From positions 1-64,000 of the forward strand of contig JADLFU010000005.1 in NCBI GenBank assembly GCA_020849655.1: 64,000 bases of DNA, read 5' to 3'. Source of the stretch: Polyangiaceae bacterium. GTDB lineage: Bacteria; Myxococcota_A; Polyangia; Polyangiales; Polyangiaceae. The position numbers were made by a program, and so were the translations under genes. Numbering within the stretch: the stretch's first letter is position 1; every line of letters begins with the position of its first letter. Positions 39,634 to 46,117 of this stretch are shown here, piece after piece. Under the pieces are notes generated by a model that was given only the letters and a program-made list of their open reading frames with translations, did no database searches and had not been told where the DNA came from.

Positions 39634-41229
39634 TCAGGGATCAATCAGCACGCCGGGGTTCAGCACGCCCGCGGGATCGAGCGCGAGCTTCGCCCCCCGG
39701 AGCGCGAGCGCGAAGGCGTCGGGGCGCTCGCGATCGTACCAGGGCCTGTGCGTGCGCCCGACCGCGTGGTGGTGCGTGATCGTGCCGCCCGCGCGCGAGA
39801 TGGCGTCCGACGCGGCGCGCTTGACCGCCGTCCACGCCTCGATCTGTCGGCCGGGCGCGGGCGGCGCGATCCAGGTGTAGTAGGGCGCGGGGCCGTCGGG
39901 GTACACGTGCGTGAAGCGGCAGGTGATGCGCCCGCCGCCGAGCTCGCGCCGCATCGCCTCCGTCACGGCGGCGCGCACCTCGGCGTCGAGCGACGGCAGG
40001 GCCGCCCAGGTGCACGCGGTCTCGAACGTGTCGACGACGAAGCCCATCGTGACGAGCGCCGACTGCAGGTACGGCCCGTCGAAGAACGCCTGCCGCCAGC
40101 GCTCGGCCGCCGCGTCGCCGCCGCGCGCGCCGTCGTCCTTCACCGTGACGCCGCGCGGGCACGCGCCCCCCTCGGCGACGGCGAGCGCGACCGCGCGCTC
40201 GAGCTCGTGCGTGACCGGGTGGTCGGCCGACTCGAACCCGAGCAGCAAGAGCGCCGAGCCGTCGTCGGCGACGAAGTTGAGGCGCGCCTCCTCCTCGTCG
40301 AGCACGCGGCAGTTGGCGGGGAAGAGGCGCGCCTGCGCGACGGCGCGCGCCCCCGCGCACGCGCCGGTGAACGCCCGGAAATGCACCACCGCCGACGCCC
40401 GGAACCGCGGGCGCGGCACGACGCGCATCCACGCCTCGGTGATGACGCCAAGGGCGCCCTCCGAGCCGAGCACGAGGCGCTCCGGGCTCGGCCCTGCCCC
40501 CGACGCGGGCAGCCTCCGCGTCGCGAGCACGCCGCGCGGCGTGACCATGCGGACCGCCTCCACGAGGTCGTCGACGTGGGTCATCAGCGTGGCGTAGTGG
40601 CCGCCCGCGCGCGTCGCGATCCAGCCGCCGAGCGTCGAGAACTCGAAGCTCTGCGGGTAGTGCCGCAAGGTCAGCCCGTGCGCGGAGAGCTGCTGCTCGA
40701 GATCGGGGCCGAGCGCGCCCGCCTGGATGCGCGCCGCGCGCGACACCTGATCGACCTCGAGCACCAGGCGGAGGCGCGCGAGATCGAGCGTCGCCTTGGG
40801 CCTGTCGCGCGGCGCCTCCACGCCCCCGACCACGCTCGTGCCGCCGCCGTACGGGACGACCGCGACGCCCTCGCGCTCCGCCCACGCGAGCGACGCGACC
40901 ACGTCGTCCTCGTCCTCCGGGGTGAGCACGAGATCGGGCGCGGGAGAGAAATCGCCGGAGAACGCGCGCACGAGATCCGGGTACGCGCGCCCGTACGTGC
41001 GGCGCGCGCGGGCCTCGCGATCGTCGGTCGCGAAGCGCGACAGCTCGGCGGGGATCGCGAGGCGCGGCGGCGGGACCACCGCGCTCTCTGGCGTCGGCGG
41101 CGCGCCCGGCGCGGGCGCAGGGACGCCGAGCAGCCCCGCGAGCTGGGCGCCGAGCGCCGCGCGCGCCGCCTCGTCCGGCAGCTTGTCGTCCCATCCCCAG
41201 CCCCAGAGCGAGCGCGCGCGCGACGTCAT
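39634..41229 (-). CDS. FAD-linked alkylglycerone-phosphate synthase-like enzyme (AGPS)
   Basis: A 531-residue flavoprotein of the VAO/PCMH family. The N-terminal LWGWGWDDKLP is typical of alkyl-DHAP synthases. The FAD-binding domain has PYGGGTSVVGGVE (~127-138), HYPQSFEFSTLGGWIATRAGGH and LGSEGALGVITEAW. The C-terminal GGTITHHHAVGRTHRPWY (~480-497) holds the HHH motif that in AGPS forms the active site for swapping an acyl for an alkyl chain on DHAP. Together these point to ether-bond formation in plasmalogen-type lipids rather than to a D-lactate or glycolate oxidase, though that related group is the main alternative. It follows the membrane-protein gene by 34 bp but has its own promoter. 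Start ATG 41229. Confidence 0.88.
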   Translation of the reverse strand: MTSRARSLWGWGWDDKLPDEAARAALGAQLAGLLGVPAPAPGAPPTPESAVVPPPRLAIPAELSRFATDDREARARRTYGRAYPDLVRAFSGDFSPAPDLVLTPEDEDDVVASLAWAEREGVAVVPYGGGTSVVGGVEAPRDRPKATLDLARLRLVLEVDQVSRAARIQAGALGPDLEQQLSAHGLTLRHYPQSFEFSTLGGWIATRAGGHYATLMTHVDDLVEAVRMVTPRGVLATRRLPASGAGPSPERLVLGSEGALGVITEAWMRVVPRPRFRASAVVHFRAFTGACAGARAVAQARLFPANCRVLDEEEARLNFVADDGSALLLLGFESADHPVTHELERAVALAVAEGGACPRGVTVKDDGARGGDAAAERWRQAFFDGPYLQSALVTMGFVVDTFETACTWAALPSLDAEVRAAVTEAMRRELGGGRITCRFTHVYPDGPAPYYTWIAPPAPGRQIEAWTAVKRAASDAISRAGGTITHHHAVGRTHRPWYDRERPDAFALALRGAKLALDPAGVLNPGVLIDP

Positions 41230-41237
41230 CGCCGCCC

Positions 41238-41267
41238 AGCCTAACGGACGTCGCGGGCGCGCGTCAG
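41238..41267 (-). promoter_or_regulatory. Promoter CTGACG-N18-TAGGCT of the AGPS-like gene
   Basis: On the minus strand CTGACG (41262-41267) and TAGGCT (41238-41243) are 18 bp apart. ATG 41229 follows the -10 by eight bases. The -35 overlaps the stop of the upstream membrane-protein gene. Confidence 0.5.
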
Positions 41268-41713
41268 AACGGCGAGACCGCCGCGACCCAGGACCCGAGC
41301 GCAGACACCACGAGGGTGAAGATCGCCGACGCGACGAAGCACGCGTGCGCGCCGCGCGCGAGCGGCAGCCTGATCTCCGCGCGCTCGGCCCGGATCGACG
41401 CCAGGTGCAGCGCCAGCCCCGCCCACGCGAGCGCGACGGCGCCGAGCCCGAGGTGCTCCTTTCGCTCGAACATCCACCCGAGGTGCGCGGCCCGCACGAA
41501 CAGGGCCTGCTTCAGCGACGCGCGGTACGCGGGGTAGATGGCGAGCGCGGAGAGCGCCGGGAGCGTGATCAGCGCCGTCGCGGCGACGGCGACCTTCGAG
41601 AGCCTGCGCACGGGTCGACGGAGCAGCCACGCCGGGTGCGCGAGCGCGGCCGCCGCGAGCCAGCCGACGTGCCCGTGCGCGTGCGCGACGGCGCGCGTCA
41701 CGACGTCGATCAC
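41264..41713 (-). CDS. Small membrane protein with His-bearing helices, radical SAM cluster
   Basis: A 149-residue protein with four predicted membrane helices. His residues are placed unusually: AHAHGHVGW at the N-terminus, LAHPAW after the first helix, AAHLGWMFERKEHLGLG in the middle and GAHACF before the last helix. Such spacing could bind haem or metal, but no known cytochrome signature is complete. Start GTG 41713 overlaps the stop of the 100-residue gene (GTGA). It is the last gene of the coupled run from 44254. Family not recognised. Confidence 0.65.
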   Translation of the reverse strand: MIDVVTRAVAHAHGHVGWLAAAALAHPAWLLRRPVRRLSKVAVAATALITLPALSALAIYPAYRASLKQALFVRAAHLGWMFERKEHLGLGAVALAWAGLALHLASIRAERAEIRLPLARGAHACFVASAIFTLVVSALGSWVAAVSPF

Positions 41714-42012
41714 GGCACCACCACCGCCTGCAGCGCGAGGCACGCCGCGGCCACCGCGACGAGCCGTGTTAGATTGGTCAGGATCCACTGGGGGCGCGCG
41801 GAGCGCTCGAAGTACACGGGCGCGAGACAGACCGCGAGGCACGCGACCACGCCCGCGCGCCAGTAGAGCGCGACCCGGCCGGACGCGACGATCGCGGCGG
41901 GGTTCGGATCGCCATAGACGAGGTGCTCGGCGACCCTCGCGACCGGGTAGGCGGCGACGAAGGTGAGCGCCGTCAGCGCCGCCGTGACGAGCGCGCGAGA
42001 CGGCCTATCCAC
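41710..42012 (-). CDS. Small three-helix membrane protein, radical SAM cluster
   Basis: A 100-residue protein with three hydrophobic segments (ALVTAALTALTFVAAYPVA, WRAGVVACLAVCLAPVYF, RLVAVAAACLALQAVVVP) joined by short loops. No catalytic motif is visible. Its ATG at 42012 lies inside the 3' end of the radical SAM gene (8-bp overlap) and its stop overlaps the GTG of the next gene, so it is translationally coupled on both sides. I do not recognise a family. Confidence 0.65.
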   Translation of the reverse strand: MDRPSRALVTAALTALTFVAAYPVARVAEHLVYGDPNPAAIVASGRVALYWRAGVVACLAVCLAPVYFERSARPQWILTNLTRLVAVAAACLALQAVVVP

Positions 42013-43111
42013 GCGCCCTCCAGGCGACCACGCGCGGGCACTCCGGATCGGGATCGCCCCCGTCGCCCAGGTGCTCGGCGACCACGCGACAGCCGCCGCG
42101 ACAGACCGCGAGCAGCGCGCAGTCGTCGCACGGGCGCGGGGGACGAGACGCGTGACCGGCCCACCGCGCGGCGACGGGCCCGGGCTCCTCGCCGCGGTAG
42201 AAGCTGCACGGACCGCGCCGCCCGAGGACGTCCACCGAGGCGAGCCACCGACCGGCCTCGCACCCGAGCACGCCCGCGGCCTCCAGCGTGGCGGCGTCGA
42301 AGCGTCCGCACAAGAAAGGCACCATCGAGCAGTCGATGCGCACGCGCAGCCCCGACGCGCGGACGAGGCGCTCGAGGAGCGCGGGGATCTCGGCGACCTG
42401 CGCCTGCGTGAGCCGCGCGTCGAGGTACACCGCGCCGACGCCGCGCCCCGCTGGCTTGAACCGCAGGAGCTGCACCTCGGCCGCGCCGAGCTCGCGCGCG
42501 CGCCCGACCGTGCCCTCGACCGCGCCGAACGTGCGACGGGTGAGCACGAGGTTGACGCCGAAGGGCACGCCCGCCGCGTGGAGCGCGTTCATCGCGCGCG
42601 CGGCGAGCGCGGCGCCGTCGAAGCCCCTCACCGCGCGGTACGCATCGCCGTCTCCGTCGAAGCTGACGTTGACCTGCGCGAAGTCGGTGAGCGTCCGCGC
42701 GCGCGCGGCGGTGAGCCCGACGCCGCTGGTCGTCATCACCGGCGCGAGCCCCCTCTCTCGCGCGGCTCGCGCGAGCGCGGGGAGATCGTCGCGAGAGAGC
42801 GGCTCTCCCCCGCCGAGGGCGACGACGAACACGCCCTCCCTCGCGAGCGCGTCGAACCGCGCGACGAGCTCGTCGAACGATGGCGCGACGCCGTCGGGCG
42901 TCGCGTCCTGGTAGCAGCCGGTGCACGCCACGGGGCAGCGCGCGGTGACGGCGACGTGCGCCTCGAGCGGGCGCGGCGGCGGCGCCTCGGCGCCCCACGC
43001 GGCGGCGCCGTCCACGCCCAGGCGCGACGCGAGCGCGCGATCGACGGCGACGAGCGCGGGGGGATCGTCGACGCGCACCCACGCGCCGAACGCCTCAGCC
43101 CTCGCCCGCAT
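42005..43111 (-). CDS. Radical SAM/SPASM-domain enzyme (putative peptide or protein maturase)
   Basis: A 368-residue radical SAM protein. The [4Fe-4S] motif CPVACTGC (C59, C63, C66) is followed by VVALGGGEPL, the SAM-binding GGE motif, and a TIM-barrel core (VNVSFDGDGDAYRAVRGF). The C-terminus has a SPASM-type array of cysteines: FLCGRF, LGCEAG, GPCSFY, RPCDDCALLAVCRGGC and PECP, enough for auxiliary clusters. SPASM enzymes commonly modify ribosomal peptides or proteins (PqqE, MftC, anSME). The ORF immediately upstream is a 68-residue membrane peptide whose 3' end overlaps this gene by 17 bp, a natural candidate substrate. The N-terminal ~50 residues have no recognisable PqqD-like recognition motif. 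Confidence 0.88.
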   Translation of the reverse strand: MRARAEAFGAWVRVDDPPALVAVDRALASRLGVDGAAAWGAEAPPPRPLEAHVAVTARCPVACTGCYQDATPDGVAPSFDELVARFDALAREGVFVVALGGGEPLSRDDLPALARAARERGLAPVMTTSGVGLTAARARTLTDFAQVNVSFDGDGDAYRAVRGFDGAALAARAMNALHAAGVPFGVNLVLTRRTFGAVEGTVGRARELGAAEVQLLRFKPAGRGVGAVYLDARLTQAQVAEIPALLERLVRASGLRVRIDCSMVPFLCGRFDAATLEAAGVLGCEAGRWLASVDVLGRRGPCSFYRGEEPGPVAARWAGHASRPPRPCDDCALLAVCRGGCRVVAEHLGDGGDPDPECPRVVAWRARG

Positions 43112-43301
43112 CGCGCGGCTCCTCGGGGGCTGGCGCTGGCTCGGGAGCGGACAGGGCAGCCACCGCGACCGCGACCGAAGACGCGACGACGCCCGCGACG
43201 AAGAGCATGTCGACCACGCTGCCGACCGACGAGCAGTTGGCGCCGGGCAGCGGCCGCACGGCGAGCACTCCGTCCGGGAGGGGGGCGCGAGGCGTGGTCA
43301 C
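43095..43301 (-). CDS. 68-residue single-helix membrane peptide, candidate radical SAM substrate
   Basis: Small ORF between the exported helical protein and the radical SAM gene. It starts at GTG 43301, which overlaps the preceding stop (GTGA), and its 3' end overlaps the radical SAM start by 17 bp. The sequence has a Pro-rich N-terminus, a single Cys in PGANCSSVGSVVDM, one hydrophobic helix (LFVAGVVASSVAVAVAALSA) and a Pro/Glu-rich C-terminus. The Cys-Ser-Ser/Gly-Ser patch directly before the helix is the only obvious site for modification. Double translational coupling and codon use consistent with neighbours make it a real gene in my view. Its role as precursor is inference. Confidence 0.6.
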   Translation of the reverse strand: MTTPRAPLPDGVLAVRPLPGANCSSVGSVVDMLFVAGVVASSVAVAVAALSAPEPAPAPEEPRDAGEG

Positions 43302-44254
43302 AGGCCGAAGTCTCCTAGCAGGTCTGCCTCGGCGCTCGCGAGCGACAGGTACGCGAGGGCGAGCACCGCGCCGACGCCTAGCGTGAGCAGCCCGACACGC
43401 GGCGCGCCGGCGGCCCGCGCGGCGGACACCGCGCGCTCGACGAGCAGCCCGCCCGCGGCGAGCAGCAAGAACGGCCGCGGAGACAGCGCCGTATCGTACA
43501 GGTGGAGCACCAGCGCCGAGGAGGCCGCCACGAGCAGGAAGGTCAGCGCCCGCAGGCCTGGTCGCGCGGCCGAGCGGCCGGCGCGCGCGAGCCCCCACGC
43601 GCCCGCGACGCCGGTCACCGCGAGCACCGCGAGCGCGAGGTGCCGCAGGCGCGCGCGCCGATCGTCCCGATCGAAGCGCGCGGCGATCACCGGCGACAGC
43701 GCCCTGTGCGCGCGAGCGAGCGCGGCCGCCCCGGCGTGATCCCCGAGCGCCTGCTTCGACGCGACCGCGACCGAGAGCGCCGCGGCCCGTAGCACCACCG
43801 GCGCCCGCTCGTCCGAGAGCAGCTTCATCGCGGGTGGGAGGCCCTCGCCCGGGAGCCCGGCGCGCGGCGTGAGCCCCTCGGCCGTCAGGAGCCACGTCTC
43901 CTGCCGCACGAGCCCCGGTGGGAACGTCTCCGACAGCCGCAAGAGCGCGCGCAGCTCTCCGGGATCGGACGCGCGCGCGGGGTCGCGGCGCACGCGCAGC
44001 AACGCCGCGAGCGGCGCGTAGTCGCCCTCCCCTCGCGCCTCGAGATCGTCGAGCCGGGCGCGCGCGCGGAGCGCGAAGGACGCAGACGGGCGCGCGCGCA
44101 AGGCCGCGCGGTAGCCGTCGACCGCGCGCGACAGCTCGAGCCGCGCCTCGGCGTCGACCGCCGCCGCGAACTCGTCGTCGGCCGCGTCCGCGCGCGCCGC
44201 TGACGCGAGCGACGACGCGAAGGCGAGGATCAGCAGGGCGCGCGCGACGCGCAT
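43298..44254 (-). CDS. Exported helical-repeat protein with C-terminal membrane helices, first gene of radical SAM cluster
   Basis: A 318-residue protein. A Sec signal peptide (ALLILAFASSLASAARA) is followed by ~180 residues of Ala/Leu/Arg-rich helices that look TPR-like (FAAAVDAEARLELSRAVDGY). Four membrane helices then form the C-terminal third (for example ALTFLLVAASSALVLHLY and LLTLGVGAVLALAYLSLA). The layout, a periplasmic TPR-like part anchored by several helices, resembles BatE-type proteins without a clear family match. ATG 44254 is set by a -10 element seven bases upstream. It is the promoter-proximal gene of the coupled cluster. Confidence 0.72.
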   Translation of the reverse strand: MRVARALLILAFASSLASAARADAADDEFAAAVDAEARLELSRAVDGYRAALRARPSASFALRARARLDDLEARGEGDYAPLAALLRVRRDPARASDPGELRALLRLSETFPPGLVRQETWLLTAEGLTPRAGLPGEGLPPAMKLLSDERAPVVLRAAALSVAVASKQALGDHAGAAALARAHRALSPVIAARFDRDDRRARLRHLALAVLAVTGVAGAWGLARAGRSAARPGLRALTFLLVAASSALVLHLYDTALSPRPFLLLAAGGLLVERAVSAARAAGAPRVGLLTLGVGAVLALAYLSLASAEADLLGDFGL

Positions 44255-44261
44255 GCGCCTC

Positions 44262-44267
44262 ACCCTA
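44262..44267 (-). promoter_or_regulatory. -10 element TAGGGT of the radical SAM cluster
   Basis: TAGGGT is followed by seven bases and ATG 44254. It is the only promoter-like element seen for the five coupled genes down to 41264. Confidence 0.5.
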
Positions 44268-44332
44268 GCCGATGCGTCAGCCGGCCACGCGGGCACATCC
44301 GCCGGGGGCGCGTGGTAAGACGGGCGTCCGCC

Positions 44333-46106
44333 GTGCGACCTCGCCTCTCGCCGCTGCTCGCGCTCGCGCTGCCCGCAGGGATCGCGTCCTGCCAGGGGTG
44401 CGATCATAAAAAACCTTACGTCCCCTACACGATCGATCCCATCGCCTCCGCGCCGAGCGCCTCGGCGCAGGCGAGCCCGACGTCGAGCGTCGTCGTCGCG
44501 CCGGTCGCGAGCGGGCCGGGGCGGGCGCCGGGCGTGGCGGCTCCCCCGGGCGCGACCACGTGGAGCCTCGGCGGCCTCGTGCTCGCGGCGCCCCCCGGGC
44601 GCGTGTTCGTGGCGGGCGTCCCGTTCGACGGTGCGGCGCCGCAGGCGCTCGTGTTCGCGGCCGACGGCGCGGCGAGCGCAGGAGATCTGCTGCTCTACCG
44701 CGGCACGGGCGCCGAGCCGCTGCACGTCGGCAAGCTCCCGGACTGGTTCCCCGGCGGCGCGGGCTGCCAGCACCAGGCGCAGCTGTCGCGGATCGGGCGC
44801 GCGACGGCGTTCGTGGAGGTGGTCGCGCTCTGCAAGGCCGACGAGCCCCGACGTCCCCACCGCTGGGCGGCCGCGGTGTCCGTGGGCGAGCGGCCGCGGG
44901 TCGGCTTCGAGCTGCGGGCAGCGCAGATCCCCGACGGCGCGCGGCTCTCCATCGAGCCGGAGGCGAGCGATCGCGACGGCGACGGCGCGGACGATCTTGC
45001 GATCACGCTCGCACTCGACGGCATGCCGCTGCCGCTCGCACCGGGTGGAGGAGGGCGCGCGTCGATGACGCTGAAGCTCCTCGGGCGCGACGGCGCGTGG
45101 ACGCAGGAGCCCTCCGAGCCCGGCGCGTCGCTCGCCGCGCTCGCGCGCTGGGTCGCCGCGCAGGCGTCGAAGCGGGACAAGGCGGAGGACTCGCTCGCGC
45201 AGGCGACCCGGCTGCGCGTGCTGTCGGCGTGGGCGTGCGCGGAGGCGGGCGCGCCGCTCGTCACCACAGGCGACGGAGCGCCGCTCTCGTGCGGCGATCT
45301 CGGCGCGACGCTCGAAGACCTCCGCCTCGCCGAGACGCGCGCGCTCGCGGCCCTCGGGCGCGTGAGCGAGGCCGCGGCGGCGGCCGGCAGCATCCGCCGC
45401 GCGCGCGTCAAGTCGAAGCGAGCGTCCGAGGCAGACGCCGCCGTGCACGCGGCGGCCCCGCTCCGGCAGGTCAAGGCGCGGCCGCTGAAGGCGACGCCCG
45501 TGCCCTCCGAGGTAGCGCTCGCGCTCGCGTTCGAGCCGTCTGGCAAGCTGCTCGTCTCCACCGCGGGCGGCGTGGTGCGCGTGGATCCGTCGACCCTCGA
45601 GGAGAGCCCCGCGGCCGACGTCAGCGCGTGGAACCCCCGCGCCGAGCTCGCGGGCGCGCTGCGCGTGGCGGGCGGCGCAGACCCATGCAAGACGGAGCGC
45701 CTGCGCCTGCACGTGCGCGGCGAGGCGGGCGCGCTGCGCGAGCTCCTGTTGCCGCGGCTCGGGAGCAGCGCGCCGCTCTGCCCGCGCGAGCCGGGCGAGC
45801 GGGCAGCGCTCCTCGACCGCGACGCCGACGGGGCGACCGCGCTCCTGTTCGGCGAGCCTGCGCGCGTGTCCGCCGACGGCGAGCGCCTCGAGATGGTCGG
45901 CTGGCCGACGAGCCCCTCGAAGCCCGGCGCGACCCGCTCACCCGACGGTCACTGGACGGCGATCTCGCTCGACGACCGCGTGCTCGTGCGCGGCGACGGG
46001 CGCTGGGAGACGTGGCGCCCCTCGCCGTTCTTCACGCTGAACGCGTGCGTCGCCGCCGACGGCGCGAGGGCCGTCGCGTGCGCGCTCGACAAGGGCGCGG
46101 TGCTGC

Positions 46107-46117
<11 letters not shown>
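44333..46117 (+). CDS. Large lipoprotein of unknown function
   Basis: A 594-residue protein with a leader LSPLLALALPAGIASC ending in a lipobox-like IASC, so it is probably lipid-anchored. The first ~60 mature residues are low-complexity Ser/Ala/Pro. The remainder has beta-propeller-like repeats (LVLAAPPGRVFVAGVPFDGAA; LALAFEPSGKLLVSTAGGVV; WTAISLDDRVLVRGDGRW), an Asp-rich segment EASDRDGDGADD and a helical stretch around 250-360. I do not recognise a family. GTG 44333 is preferred over GTG 44312 because it starts the leader directly. It is divergent from the radical SAM cluster (78-bp spacer) and overlaps the convergent P-type ATPase gene by 11 bp. Confidence 0.68.

Follow-up and report, generated by a model that had tools for sequence, protein, structure and literature searches.

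In a 64,000-nucleotide stretch of the genome of a Polyangiaceae bacterium (assembly GCA_020849655.1, contig JADLFU010000005.1, positions 1 to 64,000; hereafter the window), we analyzed a cassette of five genes, here called A to E, that includes genes for a 68-residue membrane peptide (B) and a radical S-adenosylmethionine (SAM) enzyme with a SPASM region (C). Judging from sequence comparisons and predicted folds, B and C probably form a dedicated peptide-maturase pair in which B is the substrate and its matured form remains in the membrane. The pair looks like an undescribed cell-envelope peptide-maturation system of myxobacteria, planctomycetes and other bacteria. A substrate role for B is suggested by the pattern of its conservation, by loci in which a single C gene is accompanied by two B genes, by B genes that are not linked to C, and by the maturase fold of C. 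The genes, and the segments of B and C considered below, are as follows.

A, 43298..44254, minus strand: 318 residues; exported protein with a signal peptide, a helical, tetratricopeptide-repeat-like middle and four C-terminal membrane segments
B, 43095..43301, minus strand: 68-residue one-helix membrane peptide; proposed substrate and partner of C
B residues 11-16 (GVLAVR), 43254..43271, minus strand: conserved strand-forming segment; proposed recognition part
B residues 20-28 (GANCSSVGS), 43218..43244, minus strand: near-invariant motif; proposed modification site
B residues 32-50, 43152..43208, minus strand: hydrophobic helix, from hydropathy
C, 42005..43111, minus strand: 368-residue radical SAM/SPASM enzyme
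C N-terminal small domain (R-x-E-x-F-G-[AG]...), 42968..43111, minus strand: resembles a recognition element, by fold only
C radical SAM cluster CX3CX2C (C59, C63, C66), 42914..42937, minus strand: from alignment
C SPASM seven-Cys region (C284 to C358), 42038..42262, minus strand: from alignment
D, 41710..42012, minus strand: 100 residues; three membrane segments
E, 41264..41713, minus strand: 149-residue four-helix membrane protein with a conserved His and an F-[ED]-x-K-E-H stretch

The genes run head to tail on the minus strand in the order A, B, C, D, E, from 44254 to 41264, with overlaps of 4, 17, 8 and 4 bases at A/B, B/C, C/D and D/E, respectively. The translations confirmed the initial annotation of the window, made from the letters alone, in which five overlapping genes had been described, among them those for a SPASM-type radical SAM enzyme and a one-helix peptide of 68 residues. 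In a sister genome the five genes recur in unchanged order, and comparison with it shows purifying selection on all of them (ratios of nonsynonymous to synonymous substitution of 0.38 for A, 0.22 for B, 0.24 for C, 0.56 for D and 0.45 for E). A, B, D and E could be assigned to no Pfam or NCBIfam family. A -10 element had also been placed at 44262; a scan of positions 40900-44700 for sigma-70-type promoters, a weak tool for such genomes, found no promoter-like site.

Co-occurrence and distribution of B and C

In 184 genomes of the order, C was detected above a strict limit in 66 and B in 62. Both were present in 61 genomes, B only in 1, C only in 5 and neither in 117 (Fisher P 1.5e-41); that is, 61 of the 66 genomes with C also have B. 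Two of the five C-only genomes contain weak, more distant matches to C, and the coordinates in the other three indicate partial C matches or a C near the start of a contig. When conservation of the five genes was checked in myxobacteria, as the initial annotation had advised, the small open reading frame (ORF), its motif and the gene order were found to be kept in many loci. The usual order in many genera is A-B-C-D-E, and there are variants in which C lies nearby on the opposite strand.

The initial annotation had taken a C gene without the small ORF as evidence against the system. Such an arrangement is seen at five loci (L043, L049, L050, L064 and L085), but their genomes carry B elsewhere. 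In the four of Polyangium type (L049, L050, L064 and L085), C stands with an E-like gene and another membrane gene, and B is absent there. Conversely, B is unlinked from C in L077, L078 and L093, where it adjoins a protein of about 1250 residues. By eye this large protein is transglutaminase-like, and the same three loci also contain two small genes resembling those for a Ras-like GTPase and its roadblock partner.

When the C profile was run against 84,980 species genomes, it yielded 80 loci; Polyangium species are among the matches, and the loci also include metagenome-assembled genomes (MAGs) named Planctomycetota, Phycisphaerae, Elusimicrobia, Chitinispirillaceae, Geobacteraceae and Kofleriaceae; some of these labels are possibly wrong. 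Most of the loci have B beside C, with the leader G-[R/K]-[V/I]-L-x-V-K-x-G and the motif N-P-N-S-S-S-x-G. No B was found near the Geobacteraceae C, which is close to a contig end. A MAG record labelled Klebsiella pneumoniae (L177), probably a mislabelled assembly, carries a fusion of B and C.

That unrelated membrane genes came together by chance around a generic radical SAM gene would account for the sporadic distribution within the order and for the variation of the outer neighbours. Set against these are the recurrence of the order A-B-C-D-E in many genera, the strength of the association between B and C, the purifying selection and the conservation across phyla, and we regard such a grouping as extremely improbable.

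Leader, motif and helix of B

Conservation in B is strongest in the leader, with the consensus V-L-x-V-[R/K]-x-G, and in a motif N-terminal to the helix, [A/P]-N-[C/S]-S-[S/A]-x-G; it is weaker in the helix itself, which in the window peptide has a mean hydropathy of 2.4. In 102 distinct B sequences, collected with a search pattern that itself demanded C or S, the successive motif positions are N in 101, C in 67 or S in 35, S in 102, S in 96 or A in 6, and G in 99. An alignment of all 139 B matches made without the C/S demand gave the same picture of the motif, which is identical in the sister genome. In the Cys-type peptides the charge flanking the helix is +1.4 on the N side and -1.5 on the C side, which suggests, from sequence, that the motif lies on the inside.

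The initial annotation had emphasized a single Cys patch before the helix and had counted a lack of its conservation as evidence against the system, which the sequences bear out in part. A conserved motif at this site is indeed found throughout, with Cys in the clade of the window, but one clade has Ser in all its members, and this Ser type reaches the Planctomycetota, Elusimicrobia and Chitinispirillaceae MAGs. Since Ser occupies the position in a whole clade, chemistry confined to Cys is not general, and we consider it unlikely for the family as a whole. The exchange of Cys and Ser corresponds to a single change on the tree of C; repeated independent exchange was therefore rejected.

Sequence and predicted fold of C

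The C protein of the window matches the Radical_SAM family PF04055 with an E value of 3.7e-16, the domain is also present in 73 of 73 relatives, and the cluster residues C59, C63 and C66 are invariant among the relatives aligned. The seven-Cys SPASM motif has been described as CX9-15GX4C-CX2CX5CX3C-C (PMC6231123). The window protein has the full pattern, CX12GX4C-CX2CX5CX3C-C, and its residues are invariant or nearly so in the alignments. A profile match over the full length was obtained to the PqqE structure 6c8v (E 1.3e-35). We rejected a name for C taken from the closest NCBIfam models (MftC, PqqE, GeoRSP, NirJ and others), as all listed scores of the window protein were below the cut-offs; for MftC (TIGR03962) the score was 94.3 against a cut-off of 265 bits, and for PqqE (TIGR02109) 72.7 against 381.

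The fold was predicted with AlphaFold for a natural B-C fusion (L184), giving a mean predicted local distance difference test (pLDDT) score of 90.4 and a predicted template modeling score of 0.91. The alignment supplied 72 relatives and was limited to fusions and C rows because a joint alignment misplaced the free B rows. In the model, residues 3-8 (LLRVRR), which correspond to the conserved leader, form a beta-strand (block mean pLDDT 83). The B helix spans residues 28-48 and is followed by a small domain at 68-99, and then by the barrel.

Comparison of the fusion model with known structures (Foldseek/VIA-align 2) placed SuiB with bound precursor first (Z 28.4 over 371 residues, root mean square deviation 3.3) and SkfB second (Z 28.2, 322 residues, 3.2), followed by CteB, anaerobic sulfatase-maturating enzyme (anSME), ChlB and PqqE; the match to anSMEcpe with peptide had Z 25.3 over 309 residues with a deviation of 3.0. 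The aligned ranges begin at SuiB residue 1 and SkfB residue 12 and span the recognition-element domains of these enzymes. This domain of SkfB comprises residues 12-105; that of CteB takes up the leader as an extra strand of its sheet (PMC6231123). A profile of the N-terminal domain of C run against the PDB sequences found nothing. The earlier statement that no PqqD-like domain is present holds for sequence profiles, but the predicted fold aligns with SuiB and SkfB over ranges that include their recognition-element domains. As sequence profiles see no PqqD domain, we call the small domain RRE-like, after the recognition element (RRE) of ribosomally synthesized and post-translationally modified peptide (RiPP) enzymes, and not an RRE.

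B-C fusions and loci with two B genes

B and C constitute one open frame in 17 loci (15 of them distinct), and the fused state needs three changes on the tree of C. Two further fusions occur in Polyangiales (L074 and L079); in L074 the B helix runs almost straight into the N-terminal domain of C, with few residues between them. The presence of fusions in several lineages indicates that B is not simply a free precursor.

The fusions would also be expected if B served C as an anchor in the membrane or as a regulatory subunit, with the motif as a docking or activation element and with another target for C at the membrane, such as A or E, a lipid or a small molecule, for the enzyme would then stay tethered through the B helix. 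The motif is kept invariant and not diversified, strict co-occurrence fits a subunit as well as a substrate, and a helix that spans the membrane would, with C at its end in the cytoplasm, place the motif outside, all of which is consistent with this explanation. It accounts poorly for two other arrangements, both of them odd for a stoichiometric anchor: the B genes far from C in L077, L078 and L093, and the pairs of B genes that accompany a single C in L194, L201 and L208. The two peptides of such a pair resemble each other in leader and motif but have different helices, as a shared substrate segment predicts. Moreover, it is leader and motif, not the helix, that are conserved most, and C most resembles peptide maturases. 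Weighing these points, we find the anchor role somewhat doubtful.

In these three loci, and in L083, which likewise has two B genes for one C, TlpA-like genes lie between the paired B genes; L083 also has a CcdA-like gene there. Their presence hints at periplasmic thiol chemistry.

Proposed maturation of B by C

If B is the substrate of C, as we favor, the small RRE-like domain of C would bind the leader of B as an additional beta-strand, and C would carry out SAM radical chemistry on the N-[C/S]-S-[S/A]-x-G motif next to the leader. Tethered at the cytoplasmic membrane by its helix, with no protease or exporter to release it, matured B would work with A, E and, in Polyangiales, D. In the fused proteins maturation would take place in cis. 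We infer, then, a substrate (B) with a modified site (the motif), a complex with A, D and E, and a function in the envelope, often together with an exported phosphoesterase.

Several observations weigh against this interpretation. In L074, a spanning helix would leave the motif across the membrane from C; modification before membrane insertion would reconcile the two locations. Motif residues 14-19 of the L184 model are poorly defined (pLDDT below 50). PqqD-type sequence profiles match neither C nor its relatives, and the RRE-like domain of the model has three strands and only one helix, where an RRE combines a three-stranded sheet with three helices. Only part of the family has D. Finally, the cassette has no protease, exporter or diversifying core of the kind found in most RiPP systems; the initial annotation had already remarked on the lack of a protease and an exporter, and we too recognized none among A-E or the recurrent neighbours.

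It is possible, and we put it forward tentatively, that B is a ribosomally made peptide cofactor held in the membrane. C would install a reactive or crosslinked group at N-[C/S]-S-S, in cis in the fused proteins, and the matured peptide would be integral to an undescribed envelope enzyme that also comprises A and E and is spread over several bacterial phyla.

Two more specific forms of the substrate interpretation concern the product. C could join the Cys or Ser of the motif to a residue nearby through a thioether or ether bond, in the manner of sactipeptides or ranthipeptides, and so fix a loop where the helix begins. The closest folds, those of SuiB, SkfB and CteB, belong to crosslinking maturases, and an acidic residue is common at motif position +9 (D in 43 and E in 8 of the 102 sequences). 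This position is often Thr, Gly, Asn, Ser or Pro in the other peptides, however, and the Ser clade has no Cys to act as sulfur donor; we consider a crosslink unlikely. Alternatively, C may be a formylglycine-type oxidase that converts the Cys or Ser into an aldehyde with a catalytic or attachment role. All 102 peptides have Cys or Ser at the position, the anSME class takes either residue in its substrates, and the fold of C aligns to that of anSMEcpe. Yet SuiB and SkfB align better than anSME, B does not have the C/S-x-P-x-R signature of sulfatases, and the single Cys/Ser exchange on the tree may reflect simple descent; we judge this oxidation quite improbable.

Other genes of the cassette and its surroundings

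A homologue of A adjoins B and C in most loci, and E accompanies C across the family. In a set of 160 loci, some of which are duplicates of one record, homologues of A were detected in 66 and of E in 67. The hydropathy profile of E has three clear segments and a His-rich first helix, and the protein is predicted to be a four-helix bundle (pLDDT 93). His13, Gly56, Phe82, Lys85 and Gly140 are its best conserved residues, which include positions of the F-[E/D]-x-K-E-H stretch. Foldseek returned only generic four-helix bundles for E (best E value 0.35), and there was no Pfam match of note. Given this fold search, to assign the His residues a part in heme or quinone use is a guess.

A purple-acid-phosphatase-like metallophosphoesterase is encoded in 30 of the 160 loci, and in 15 of the 80 from the genome scan. 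It ranges over Sandaracinaceae-type myxobacteria, the fused forms, and planctomycete, Chitinispirillaceae and Geobacteraceae loci. About 59 such proteins were found in 135 Mb from 17 cassette-bearing genomes, from which roughly 0.005 would be expected by chance per 11-kb locus, a rough figure in that the queries differed and the loci share ancestry. A porin often accompanies the phosphoesterase. Pst and PhoU genes do not adjoin the cassettes. At L232:4282-7105, away from the cassette, a porin and a phosphoesterase lie near pstA, pstB and phoU (names read from the sequence). These neighbours give no more than a hint of the use of phosphate or phosphoesters. Among other recurrent neighbours, nine loci have a DUF2950-like protein and four have TlpA-like proteins.

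Upstream of A in the window lies a divergent gene:

f5 family gene, 44333..46117, plus strand: lipoprotein-like, head to head with A; no Pfam match

In about 14 other loci of Polyangiaceae type a gene of this family likewise stands head to head with A, and it may be an accessory of the cassette. Downstream of E, at 39634-41229 on the minus strand, is a gene for an oxidase linked to flavin adenine dinucleotide that resembles alkyl-dihydroxyacetone-phosphate synthase. A functional link to this enzyme was discarded as too narrow, the gene being seen only here and in the sister genome. In L046, L052 and L056, glycerol-3-phosphate dehydrogenase genes resembling glpA-glpB directly precede A-B-C; a link to glycerol 3-phosphate, limited to three loci, was likewise considered too narrow.

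Relation to known systems

The systems of SuiB/SuiA (streptide) and SkfB/SkfA (sporulation killing factor), which give the best fold matches (Z 28), share with B and C a radical SAM barrel and a SPASM/Twitch C-terminus in the enzyme, a small peptide gene that adjoins the enzyme gene and, by predicted fold alone, an RRE-like N-terminus. They differ in that the peptide described here contains an invariant motif as well as a membrane helix and is fused to the enzyme in several lineages, that the cassette has no protease or exporter, and that C has only 15-21% sequence identity to those structures. MftC and PqqE are among the nearest profiles to C, but no MftA- or PqqA-like peptide or partner set was seen here. 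The anSME resembles C in its SPASM fold (Z 25) and in a Cys or Ser at the target position, which for C is a proposed one, but differs in the signature that B lacks.

In fused borosins, precursor and modifying enzyme are likewise one chain; there the enzyme belongs to another superfamily, whereas here the peptide is N-terminal and a membrane helix stands between motif and enzyme. As in RiPP systems generally, the proposed cognate peptide is encoded with its maturase, without their protease and transporter for leader removal and export. The conserved Cys that serves as sulfur donor in sactipeptide and ranthipeptide systems is present only in the window's own clade.

Full-text searches of the open-access literature with motif strings and for fused precursor/radical SAM proteins found no description of the pair; most subscription papers were outside their scope. 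The initial annotation had proposed that this may be a new maturation system. The conserved tie of small ORF, motif and radical SAM gene, which fits no described family, supports that proposal in part, but four of its points had to be corrected. We regard B and C as a probable SPASM maturase-peptide pair with a peptide retained in the membrane, a variant of the known maturase pairs.

If this interpretation is correct, the product of a widespread radical SAM peptide system would be kept as membrane machinery and not exported as an antibiotic or signal, and fusion of peptide and enzyme would have taken place on more than one occasion. The invariant motif, the stand-alone 68-residue peptide and the natural fusions make the action of the enzyme directly testable.

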